Part shown: positions 12,837 to 59,619 of the stretch, one piece after another
Layout: each line of letters begins with the position of its first letter
How positions within the stretch are numbered: the stretch's first letter is position 1
Assembly (NCBI RefSeq): GCF_900167575.1
Contig: NZ_FUZP01000001.1
Coordinates: forward strand, 1-64,000
Direction: 5' to 3'
Source: Okibacterium fritillariae
Lineage (GTDB): Bacteria > Actinomycetota > Actinomycetes > Actinomycetales > Microbacteriaceae
DNA length: 64,000 bases
The notes under the pieces: model-generated
Seen by the model: only the letters and a program-made list of their open reading frames with translations
Databases searched by the model: none
What the model was told of the DNA's origin: nothing
Translations under genes and position numbers: made by a program

Positions 12837-14216
12837 TTACATGCCCGGCGCGAGGTCCGCGAAGCGGGAGTAGTGGCCGTGGAACGCGACCGTGACGGTG
12901 CGCGTGGGGCCGTTACGGTGCTTGGCGACGATGAGGTCGGCCTCGCCCGCGCGCGGGTTGTCTTTTTCGTAGGCGCTCTCGCGGTGCAGCAGGATGACCA
13001 TGTCGGCGTCCTGCTCGAGCGAGCCGGACTCGCGCAGGTCGCTGATGGCGGGCATCTTGTCGGCGCGCTGCTCGGGGCCACGGTTCAGCTGTGACAGCGC
13101 GATCACGGGCACCTTGAGTTCTTTGGCGAGCAGCTTGAGCGCACGCGAGAACTCGGAGACCTCCTGCTGGCGGCTCTCGACGCGCTTACCGCTCGTCATG
13201 AGCTGCAGGTAGTCGATGACGACCATCTTGAGGCCCACGCGCTGCTTGAGGCGGCGGCACTTGGCGCGAATCTCGACGAGCGTCATGTTGGGGCTGTCGT
13301 CGATGTAGAGGGGCGCGTCGTTGATCTTGCCGCGCGTCGACGCGAGCTTGGTCCAGTCGCGCTGGTCCACGTTTCCCTTGCGCATGCTCTGCAGGGGCAC
13401 GGATGCCTCGGCCGACAGAAGTCGCATGGCGATCTCGCTGCGACCCATTTCGAGCGAGAAGACGATGGTGGGCTGGTCGTTGTGGATCGCGGCGGCGCGC
13501 GCGAAGTCGAGGGCCAGCGTGGACTTACCCAATGCGGGTCGAGCGGCAACCAGGATGAGCTGGCCCGGGTGGAAACCGTTGGTGAGGTCATCCATCTCGA
13601 TGAAGCCCGTGGGAACACCCGCCATCTGGCCGTCGGTTCCGCTGGCGGCCTCGATCTCGTCGAAGGCCGCGCCCACGGCGTCGCTGAGCGGCACGTAGTC
13701 TTCGCTCTCGGTCGAGCCGGTGACGCCATAGATCTCGGCCTGCGCGTTGTTGACGAGGTCGAGCACTTCGCCCTCGCCGGCATAACCCATCTGCACGATG
13801 CGTGTGCCCGCTTCGACGAGACGGCGCAGCAGGGCGCGCTCGGCGACGATGGAGGCGTAGAACCCGGCGTTGGCGGCCGTGGGCACGAGGCTCGTCAGCG
13901 TGTGCAGGTAGTCGGCACCGCCAGCCCGCGACAGCTCGCCCTGTTTGATGAGCTCGTCGGTGACGGCGATGACGTCGGTGGGTTCACCCTGCGAGTACAA
14001 CGCGAGGAGAGCGTCGAAGATGATCTCGTGTTTGGGCACGTAGAAATCGGGGCCGCGCACGACCTCGACGACGTCGGCGACGGCATCCTTCGACAGGAGC
14101 ATGCCGCCCAGGGCGGATTGTTCGGCCAGCAGGTCGTGCGGCGGGGTGCGGTCGGAGCCGTAGGACGGGTTCGAACCCGAGCGATCATCTGCGAGGCCGA
14201 GGTGGGCGATTGACAC
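12837..14216 (-). CDS. dnaB: Replicative DNA helicase
   Basis: Hexameric 5'-3' helicase that unwinds DNA ahead of the replisome. The 459-aa product has the N-terminal primase-interacting helical domain (residues about 25-130) and a RecA-like domain. Visible motifs are ARPALGKSTLALDFA (Walker A), VVIDYLQLM (Walker B), and ALSQLNRGPEQRADKMP near the C-terminus. No intein or insertion is seen. It lies with rplI, rpsR, ssb and rpsF as usual, but here an oxidoreductase gene separates it from rplI. A DnaA-box cluster occurs about 230-310 bases upstream of its start. Confidence 0.96.
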   Translation of the reverse strand: MSIAHLGLADDRSGSNPSYGSDRTPPHDLLAEQSALGGMLLSKDAVADVVEVVRGPDFYVPKHEIIFDALLALYSQGEPTDVIAVTDELIKQGELSRAGGADYLHTLTSLVPTAANAGFYASIVAERALLRRLVEAGTRIVQMGYAGEGEVLDLVNNAQAEIYGVTGSTESEDYVPLSDAVGAAFDEIEAASGTDGQMAGVPTGFIEMDDLTNGFHPGQLILVAARPALGKSTLALDFARAAAIHNDQPTIVFSLEMGRSEIAMRLLSAEASVPLQSMRKGNVDQRDWTKLASTRGKINDAPLYIDDSPNMTLVEIRAKCRRLKQRVGLKMVVIDYLQLMTSGKRVESRQQEVSEFSRALKLLAKELKVPVIALSQLNRGPEQRADKMPAISDLRESGSLEQDADMVILLHRESAYEKDNPRAGEADLIVAKHRNGPTRTVTVAFHGHYSRFADLAPGM

Positions 14217-14447
14217 TCTGGTCTCCTTCCCTCGTGCACACGTTGTTATCGGGGCGCCACGGGCGCGGAACGATCAACGGATGCTGGAGCAGCGTGTCGC
14301 TTCGGGTGCGGCGTCGGCTCTAGTAAACCTCCGACCGCTGACAGTGTTGTTCGGTGCCCGTGATCGGTGACTCGTTCTCGCGTCTTCGCTCAGGAACGAG
14401 GCGCTGCCCCACATTAGGGACAGGGCTCTCTCCACAGCAAATATGCC

Positions 14448-14523
14448 TGTGGATAACTTTGTGTATAACCTGGGCGAAACGCCGCGCGCTGTGTGCACAA
14501 CCTGTGTGGAAACTTGTGGATAA
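14448..14523. promoter_or_regulatory. DnaA-box cluster upstream of dnaB
   Basis: Two perfect boxes TGTGGATAA (14448-14456, 14515-14523; complement TTATCCACA). Near-matches are TGTGTATAA (14460-14468), TGTGCACAA (14492-14500) and TGTGGAAAC (14505-14513), so five in 76 bp, all in the same orientation. A further TGTGCATAG lies at 14636. DnaA binding here is inferred from the motif. Confidence 0.65.
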
Positions 14524-14704
14524 CTAGAAATATTTGGCGCGTAAAAAGCTTCCGATCAGGTAATTCTATTCACACAGACCGACGGTGGAAAACTCTTTCG
14601 ATCAGACGTTGAATGTTCACAACGTGCCGTTAACCTGTGCATAGATCGACTTGACTCGCAACTCGCCGCGGGTGTACGACGCTCCATGGTCTCACCAACG
14701 ACGA

Positions 14705-14738
14705 CGCCCGGTGGCTCGAACACGAGCGACACCGGGCG
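14705..14738 (-). terminator. Candidate terminator after the Rieske oxidoreductase
   Basis: Stem CGCCCGGTG / CACCGGGCG with a further inner pairing (CTCG/CGAG), 50 bases past the stop codon on the minus strand. No T-run, so strength is uncertain. Confidence 0.5.
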
Positions 14739-14787
14739 GCGACTTTCTCTCGGAATAGGCCGCCGACCGGCCCGTCCCGCTGCGACT

Positions 14788-16281
14788 TTATTCGTGGGCC
14801 GCGAGACCTGCGACGGCCGGGCCCTCGAGCAGGTCGCCCTGAGCCGAGAAGCGTGAGCCGTGCAGCGGGCAGTCCCAACTCTGCTCCTGGTCGTTCCACG
14901 ACACGACACCCCCGAGATGCGGGCACACCGCACTGACCGCGCACGTTTTCCCGTCCACGGTCGACGTCCCGACCGGGGCTAGGCCGTCCGATGCGCGCGT
15001 GACCACGCCCTGGCCTTCGGCCGGGGCCTCGGACGGCGCCCCCGTGAGCACGTGCGCCCATCCCTTCACGATCTCCACACCGACCTCGGCGTTGTGCAGA
15101 GCGCCCTCGGCGAGGTCGGCGGGCGTGGTGATGCGCGTGCCCCAGACCTTCGCCCAACCGGGCTGCTCGGCATCCGTCAACTCGGCGGTGAGACGCAGGG
15201 ATGCCGCCGCCGCGTTCGTCATGCCCCACTTGTCGTAGCCCGTGGCCATGTAGACCGTGCCGCGCCCGCGGGGAAGTGCACCGACGAAGGGAATCTGGTT
15301 ATGCGAGCTGTAGTCCTGCGCCGACCAGGAATAGGCCACCTCGGCACCCGGGAAGTGCTGCTCCGTCCAGGCCACCAGGTCCTCGACCTTCTCGCGTTCA
15401 GAACCGCCGCGGCCCACGGGATGGTCGTTGCCGCCGATGATGAGGTAGTCGACACCATCCACCGTCGCCTGGCGCACCGACCGACTCGGGGTGTCCGCCG
15501 AGAGATACATGCCCTGCGGAGTCGCCGCCGCGCCCGTGAACGCGATCGCGTAGGAACGGGTGGGGGACACCTTAGCGAAGTAGCCGCCGCGATCGAGGAT
15601 CGGGATGCCGGTCGCCAGGACGACGTTCTCGGCGTGCACGTCGCCGCGCTCGGTTTCGACAAGGGTGGGCGATTCGACGTCGACACCCGTCACGCGCACA
15701 CCCGACACCACCCGGCCACCGTGCGCGCGGATGTCGGTGATCGCGGCCGCGATGAGGTCCATCGGGTCGAACTGGGCCTGGGCCGGCATCCGCACCGCGC
15801 CCTTGATGTCATAAGGCAGCTCGGATGTCTCGACCCACTCGACGCCCAGGCCGAGCTTCTCGTTGGCCTCGAACTCCTTGCGCGCCTGTTTCAGGCCCTC
15901 GTCGGACACCGCATAGGTGTAGGCGTCGCGGACATCCACCGGGACGCCCCACTCGGCGCACAGAGCCAGCAGGAGGGCCTGCCCGTCGGTGTTGGCCTCG
16001 ACGTAGGCCCGGCCGAGCTTCTGCGAGTGGTGGGACAGGATGGTCGAGAGCTTCGTGCCCTGCAGCACGCTGATCTTGGCGGTGGTGTTGCCGGATGTCA
16101 CGGCCCCGGGTGTGCGCGCCTCGAGCACCAGCACATCGACGCCCGCTCGGGCCAGCAGCGTGGCCGTGAGGAGCCCGGTGAGGCCGGCACCGACCACGAT
16201 GACGTCGGCGTGTTCCTCGACCACGAACGGGTCGCTCACGAATTCGGGGGCGTGCGCGTTCCACAGCGATACGGGGCTCAT
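14788..16281 (-). CDS. FAD-dependent oxidoreductase with C-terminal Rieske iron-sulfur domain
   Basis: 497-aa fusion. The N-terminal DAO-type FAD domain starts with the dinucleotide motif VVGAGLTGLLTATLLARAG near residue 29. The C-terminal domain, from about residue 405, is a Rieske 2Fe-2S domain with Cys453-x-His455 (CPHLG) and Cys471-x2-His474 (CPLHGS). Such fusions are common soil-bacterial oxidoreductases of unassigned substrate. I start it at ATG 16281: the ATG two codons earlier (16287) directly abuts GAGAGG, whereas 16281 has six-base spacing. The frame continues upstream without similarity. It interrupts the usual rplI-dnaB neighbourhood. Confidence 0.85.
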   Translation of the reverse strand: MSPVSLWNAHAPEFVSDPFVVEEHADVIVVGAGLTGLLTATLLARAGVDVLVLEARTPGAVTSGNTTAKISVLQGTKLSTILSHHSQKLGRAYVEANTDGQALLLALCAEWGVPVDVRDAYTYAVSDEGLKQARKEFEANEKLGLGVEWVETSELPYDIKGAVRMPAQAQFDPMDLIAAAITDIRAHGGRVVSGVRVTGVDVESPTLVETERGDVHAENVVLATGIPILDRGGYFAKVSPTRSYAIAFTGAAATPQGMYLSADTPSRSVRQATVDGVDYLIIGGNDHPVGRGGSEREKVEDLVAWTEQHFPGAEVAYSWSAQDYSSHNQIPFVGALPRGRGTVYMATGYDKWGMTNAAAASLRLTAELTDAEQPGWAKVWGTRITTPADLAEGALHNAEVGVEIVKGWAHVLTGAPSEAPAEGQGVVTRASDGLAPVGTSTVDGKTCAVSAVCPHLGGVVSWNDQEQSWDCPLHGSRFSAQGDLLEGPAVAGLAAHE

Positions 16282-42389: not shown

Positions 42390-42711
42390 AGTTTTCACTC
42401 CACTTGGGATCTCACTGCGACATCGGGATCACAGGGAAAGATTTAGCGCCCGGAGGCATACGTCAACTGATTAAAACTACGGCCTCGAAGCCGTGCGGTC
42501 AAACCGAGGGCAGACCAATCTACGATTATGGACGAACTCACGGGCAAAACGGATGCTGACACGCGGGGCCTCGTGGAGTAAATTTGCCCGAATCACTGCA
42601 TGGTCGTTACCGTTGGGGAAGTTATCCCCAGCTTTCTGCGCCGAGTTCCCGATCATTGCGGGCATGTGCGAGCATCGGTGGATAAACCTGTGAATAACTT
42701 CCCGAGGATGT
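42390..42711. other. 322-bp rpmH-dnaA intergenic region
   Basis: Carries the rpmH promoter on the left and the dnaA upstream region on the right. Three degenerate DnaA boxes lie near dnaA: TTATCCCCA (42622-42630), GGTGGATAA (42677-42685) and TGTGAATAA (42689-42697), which would allow DnaA to control its own gene. No additional gene seen. Confidence 0.7.
42440..42466 (-). promoter_or_regulatory. Candidate rpmH promoter
   Basis: TTGACG (complement of 42461-42466), 15-bp spacer, TAAATC (complement of 42440-42445). The spacer is short. Gives a leader of about 45 bases. Confidence 0.45.
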
Positions 42712-44743: not shown

Positions 44744-45043
44744 TTATCCACAGGCTACGAAGTAATCCACAGGCTGGGGAGAGACGAATTACGGCCGTGT
44801 TACACAATGTGGACAACCTGTGGATAACTGTGGATTATCTCGGGCGTGTCTGTTGAAACTCGACCGCGGCCTGTGAATAGACCCGTGTTTATGCGGAATT
44901 GGCCGGCACCGGCATCCCCACCCGTTTCACACCCTGTCAACAAGTCACACGGTTGTAGTTCCCAGTGTTTGAGCGCTCTCCACCGAGTTATCCACATTAT
45001 CCACAGGCGTTAACACCATTAACAGTTCTTTAAACATTTCTCC
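44744..45043. other. oriC: DnaA-box clusters and AT-rich tract
   Basis: Left cluster: TTATCCACA (44744-44752), TAATCCACA (44763-44771), TGTGGACAA (44808-44816), TGTGGATAA (44819-44827) and TGTGGATTA (44829-44837). Right pair: TTATCCACA at 44988-44996 and 44997-45005, directly abutting. An AT-rich tract (TTAACACCATTAACAGTTCTTTAAACATTT, in part 45010-45040) follows and is the likely unwinding element. Box orientation flips inside the left cluster. The region 44209-45157 between dnaA and dnaN (949 bp) has no gene. Confidence 0.92.
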
Positions 45044-59572: not shown

Positions 59573-59619
59573 TTATCCACAGGTTTATTAACACTGGGGA
59601 TAATTACACCCGTGTAATT
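59573..59619. promoter_or_regulatory. DnaA boxes and palindrome between rhomboid and crgA
   Basis: Perfect DnaA box TTATCCACA (59573-59581), near-box TGGGGATAA (59595-59603), then an 8-bp inverted repeat AATTACAC-CC-GTGTAATT (59602-59619). AT-rich relative to surroundings. It lies between convergent genes, upstream of neither promoter. Confidence 0.6.

Follow-up and report, generated by a model that had tools for sequence, protein, structure and literature searches.

An array of DnaA boxes at fixed distances from the predicted dnaB promoter in Okibacterium fritillariae and its relatives

The dnaB locus and its DnaA boxes

The DNA considered here (the window) is a stretch of 64,000 nucleotides from Okibacterium fritillariae (NZ_FUZP01000001.1, positions 1 to 64,000 of the forward strand). 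It carries a minus-strand gene block in the order rpsF, ssb, (rpsR), rplI, a gene for an FAD-dependent oxidoreductase with a C-terminal Rieske domain, and dnaB as the last member, with rpsF and rpsR assigned presumptively. The dnaB product scored 520.6 bits against the NCBIfam DnaB model (cut-off 385). A gap of 570 bp separates the oxidoreductase gene from dnaB, and it contains an array of DnaA boxes together with a predicted promoter, an accessory motif, and an AT-rich upstream part (Table 1).

Table 1. Features of the dnaB upstream region and other DnaA-box sites in the window
Feature	Position	Strand	Basis or remark
dnaB, replicative DNA helicase, GTG start at 14216	12837–14216	−	ORF; NCBIfam TIGR00665 DnaB
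Predicted −10 element TAATGT	14411–14416	−	fixed distance from proximal box in family
Predicted −35 element TTGCTG	14435–14440	−	7 bp 3′ of proximal DnaA box; 18 bp to −10
DnaA box 0 (proximal), TTATCCACA, perfect	14448–14456	−	box search; center ~−47 from predicted start point
DnaA box −12, TTATACACA, 1 mismatch to TTRTCCACA	14460–14468	−	box search
Accessory motif CGGCGTTTCGCCCA, non-DnaA box; family consensus CGGCGTTTCGCGCA	14471–14484	−	fixed offset in relatives
DnaA box −44, TTGTGCACA, 1 mismatch	14492–14500	−	box search; position conserved in anchored genomes
DnaA box −57, GTTTCCACA, 2 mismatches	14505–14513	−	position conserved at −55/−57
DnaA box −67, TTATCCACA, perfect	14515–14523	−	box search; position conserved
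AT-rich upstream part, 57% AT	14524–14645		composition; weak conserved box-like sites
Weak box-like site CTATTCACA	14566–14574	+	conserved, inside AT-rich part
Weak box-like site TTTTCCACC	14584–14592	−	conserved, inside AT-rich part
Promoter-like site TTTCCA-17-TAGAAT	14591–14563		generic sigma-70 scan; unconserved
Far box CTATGCACA	14636–14644	−	box at −188 to −190 in 32/66 anchored genomes
FAD-dependent oxidoreductase, C-terminal Rieske domain	14788–16281		between rplI and dnaB
dnaA upstream boxes TTATCCCCA, then inverted TTATCCACC and TTATTCACA	42622–42697		conserved in relatives
oriC	44744–45005		canonical boxes between dnaA and dnaN
Convergent DnaA box pair TTATCCACA / TTATCCCCA, 22 bp apart	59573–59603		3′ of crgA; most of 30 family loci conserve it

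A preliminary description of this DNA had reported five DnaA-like 9-mers at 14448–14523, two of them perfect and all in one orientation, about 30 kb from oriC. All five were recovered, they lie on the minus strand and read towards dnaB, and the distance agrees with the location of oriC. The extent proposed for the feature held for these boxes only, as the full feature is larger, with the array reaching to about 14645 and the predicted promoter lying on the dnaB side. At the −57 position, where the match is poorest, the close relative G043 displays TTTTCCACA, which has a single mismatch.

Clustering of DnaA boxes at dnaB exceeds chance, a mark of DnaA-regulated promoters. The window contains 20 boxes at ≤1 mismatch (10 ± 3.3 in shuffles), and given how densely boxes occur in the window, P for four of them within 76 bp is ~1e-8 per position. 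The sole other comparable cluster within the window is oriC, and across the 3.14 Mb genome, the dnaB array is the strongest DnaA-box cluster outside oriC. A genome-wide pattern search retrieved 16 copies of TTATCCACA versus 3 for the reversed control. Two of the 16 reside in the dnaB array, four in oriC, and one near crgA, while nine are isolated (lacking a second box within 250 bp).

Judged by consensus, the predicted dnaB promoter is sigma-A-like, with a predicted start near 14404 and a 5′ UTR of about 190 nt. A generic sigma-70 scan missed this conserved promoter because its −35 element is only TTG-like, and instead flagged the unconserved site TTTCCA-17-TAGAAT. An Rfam search of 14000–14900 returned no family (best E 0.49, far below the gathering score), leaving the long dnaB leader without explanation by a known RNA family.

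The AT-rich neighbor of the boxes noted in the preliminary description was also confirmed: positions 14524–14623 are 58% AT in a window of 34% AT, within the top 0.06% among 100-bp stretches. This conserved part could serve in DNA bending, polymerase contact, or unwinding.

Conservation, spacing, and reach

The dnaB gene was located in 100 Microbacteriaceae genomes, and the upstream DNA was read in 90, representing >70 genera. Within 450 bp upstream of dnaB, all 90 contain at least one DnaA box, 86 at least two, and 74 at least three. Together these regions hold 120 perfect boxes and 358 at ≤1 mismatch, compared with 0.40 and 16.6, respectively, in dinucleotide shuffles, with 319 in the dnaB sense and 39 in the opposite orientation. 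A control stretch 700–1400 bp upstream in the same genomes yielded no perfect and one imperfect box. The absence of the boxes in related genomes, which the preliminary description had named as evidence against its proposal, was therefore not seen; their placement, which it had called unusual, is the rule across the family and most of the class. In most family genomes, dnaB lies ~20–30 kb from dnaA. Four genomes with dnaB 78, 92, 113, and 454 kb from dnaA on the same contig retain 3–7 boxes (apparent distances of 1–4 Mb were disregarded, as these come from circular genomes cut at dnaA).

The boxes also stand in a fixed relation to the dnaB promoter that is conserved in relatives, a further mark of DnaA-regulated promoters. 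With gaps of 4–10 bp permitted, a box at ≤1 mismatch was found exactly 7 or 8 bp before TTGnnn-N16..18-TAnnnT in 62 of the 90 genomes, compared with 0.8 in shuffles that moved the non-box bases. The box core CACA precedes TTGnnn-N16..19-TAnnnT by 7–8 bp in 66 of the 90 (shuffle mean 0.2, maximum 2), leaving 24 genomes that lack a strict promoter match. Gaps between CACA and the −35 element are almost exclusively 7–8 and 17–20 bp (mostly 19), the latter reflecting the second box. Ungapped anchoring of 66 genomes on the proximal box revealed a common consensus of ~190 bp in which boxes occupy positions 0, −12, −44, −55/−57, −67, and ~−189; the box at −12 (≤1 mismatch) is present in 33 of the 66. 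These positions match an 11-bp period (R = 0.94), and the boxes would therefore lie on one face of the helix. A search of 100 whole genomes for TTATCCACA-N7..8-TTG-N19..22-TAnnnT gave 43 matches, of which 41 fell upstream of dnaB, as judged by comparing match and dnaB positions by eye; the reversed pattern gave none. The O. fritillariae genome contains a single match to the box-plus-promoter pattern, at the dnaB array.

Conservation extends to the accessory motif, with GCGTTT occurring at its offset in 54 of the 66 anchored genomes and CGGCGTTTC present in the dnaB upstream DNA of 62 of 90 family genomes (none for the reversed control). Among exact CGGCGTTTCGCGCA matches in 100 genomes, ~17 of 26 lie at dnaB (compared by eye), which argues against a motif shared by a general regulon.

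Outside the family, dnaB is preceded by boxes in nearly all of ~85 genomes sampled from ~28 other families of the class, as well as in named Nocardia, Rhodococcus, Streptomyces, and Amycolatopsis records and many Mycobacterium records. The promoter lock is less uniform. In its direct orientation, it was found in only 5 of 81 genomes from other families of the class; an inverted-box lock was found in 22 of 81, comprising the Streptomyces-type family plus two others. Families f20 (Streptomyces-type) and f19 carry the inverted box TGTGGATAA 4–6 bp before the −35 element at dnaB, about once per genome; f20 was taken as Streptomycetaceae and f7 as Mycobacteriaceae by agreement with named loci. The Streptomyces-type dnaB upstream regions (L153, L157, L161, L162, L165, L166, L329, L330) display a fixed four-box pattern in which an inverted perfect box comes last, against a TTGGCT promoter. 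With the patterns used, many of the remaining families showed no lock. In a sample of the phylum outside the class, few boxes precede dnaB, and their occurrence is patchy.

DnaA sites in the window and in other bacteria

Besides the dnaB array and oriC, the window harbors two further DnaA-box sites. The boxes upstream of dnaA fit autoregulation of that gene. The convergent pair near crgA resides in a neighborhood of cyclophilin, crgA, glutamine amidotransferase, and kinase genes, which matches that of the Rv0010c-Rv0011c DnaA site of Mycobacterium tuberculosis. For that site, the excerpted text of Hicks et al. (2020, PMC7738170) reports no obvious counterpart in other bacteria. According to the same text, IDAP-seq of M. 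tuberculosis DnaA identified five regions, namely, oriC, rpmH-dnaA, a region upstream of dnaB (Rv0057), Rv0010c-Rv0011c, and Rv3843c, and ChIP-seq in Mycobacterium smegmatis placed DnaA at the homologues of all five. Counterparts to four of these five sites occur in the window: oriC, dnaA upstream, dnaB, and crgA.

The mycobacterial dnaB region resembles the present array in carrying DnaA boxes upstream of dnaB, and the excerpts further describe an I282T DnaA mutant that binds this region more weakly and under-expresses dnaB (PMC7738170). In the mycobacterial loci read, however, the boxes are fewer and less regular than in the array, and four named loci have none at ≤1 mismatch. An array architecture or promoter lock is not described in the excerpted portion of PMC7738170. 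DnaA also acts on dnaB in Caulobacter crescentus, although in a distant phylum: boxes are predicted upstream of dnaB, which belongs to the DnaA regulon (excerpt of the review PMC8203912, citing Hottes 2005). Multi-box sites outside oriC are likewise known from Bacillus subtilis, where, unlike here, no main listed DnaA peak falls at the helicase gene (PMC4447404), and from Escherichia coli, where datA, together with IHF, has a role in DnaA-ATP hydrolysis and DARS has one in nucleotide exchange (PMC5835720), in contrast to the promoter-locked dnaB array. A search of largely open-access literature found no description of a promoter-locked array or of its conservation over actinobacteria. A DnaA site at dnaB is of a known kind; its promoter-locked architecture and how widely this extends seem not to have been described.

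Candidate roles of the array

The boxes, their spacing, the promoter lock, the conservation, and the co-movement with dnaB are properties of the sequences compared, and they fit best with a cluster that activates the dnaB promoter from upstream. It is probable that DnaA raises dnaB transcription from this site and so matches helicase supply to initiation. DnaA would occupy the row of boxes at whole helical turns on one DNA face; the final box lies directly against the −35 element, and DnaA bound there may contact RNA polymerase and increase dnaB transcription. Activation would occur when DnaA is plentiful, probably in its ATP form, and helicase supply would thereby follow initiation, with a presumed cell-cycle timing in O. 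fritillariae. Activation is the best reading because the proximal box, immediately before the −35 element, is centered at about −47 relative to the predicted start and is backed by more boxes at whole helical turns, an arrangement typical of activators that contact RNA polymerase, and because of the mycobacterial mutant; the direction of the effect leans on that one mutant and on box position. The regulatory link between DnaA and dnaB suggested in the preliminary description is strongly supported by the promoter-locked geometry, the co-movement with dnaB, and published DnaA binding in mycobacteria.

The same promoter might instead be repressed by DnaA, or repressed at high and activated at low DnaA in the manner of an autoregulatory brake. 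In several bacteria, DnaA is a repressor of dnaA itself (PMC8203912), and DnaA bound to the boxes would block transcription from TTTCCA-17-TAGAAT, which lies upstream of them. That site is unconserved, whereas the conserved promoter is downstream of all boxes, with −35 and −10 elements free of conserved box overlap, and the mycobacterial mutant with weaker DnaA binding shows lower dnaB expression. Repression is accordingly an unlikely reading.

Less likely still is a titration or nucleotide-switch site of the datA/DARS kind that buffers free or ATP-bound DnaA and adjoins dnaB incidentally. With five or more sites in 76 bp, the array would soak up some DnaA, and at 30 kb from oriC it would be duplicated early. 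Titration, however, needs no particular position, and the array is base-exact relative to the −35 element; a titration site would be expected to remain near the origin, but the array is kept with dnaB where the gene lies far away. Nor is a promoter lock expected of a datA/DARS role. Titration, one of the readings offered in the preliminary description, is a by-product at most.

We consider it very improbable that the true binder is a nucleoid protein or some regulator other than DnaA whose site resembles a DnaA box. The conserved non-DnaA motif within the array would suit such a protein, but the 9-mers match the DnaA box, DnaA binds the corresponding mycobacterial region (excerpted text of PMC7738170), and the accessory motif may mark a factor that acts alongside DnaA instead of replacing it. 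Least probable of all is the small second origin of the preliminary description, for although dense boxes adjoin a stretch of 57% AT (49% in the oriC box region), a normal, canonical oriC is present at dnaA-dnaN, the conserved part is a promoter array that, unlike oriC, is single-orientation and promoter-locked, and the array moves with dnaB and not with the origin. The window's GC skew is uneven and offers no way to distinguish two origins 30 kb apart.

Beyond upstream activation, a more elaborate model is possible, albeit speculative. The dnaB promoter of the family may form a rigid, enhancer-like nucleoprotein array of ~200 bp, with DnaA on one face at an 11-bp period and a second protein at CGGCGTTTCGCGCA. 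Most of these genomes would have no other DnaA-locked promoter of this type, and the array, conserved across the class with its boxes in one of two orientations, would constitute a dedicated feed-forward connection by which the initiator acts on helicase supply.

The comparison extends a single mycobacterial binding peak to a promoter architecture that is conserved to the base in much of the actinobacterial class. This suggests that initiation and fork assembly have long been connected, under selection, through the control of helicase supply by DnaA. The array would also provide a clean class of DnaA-activated promoter for studying contact between the initiator and RNA polymerase.
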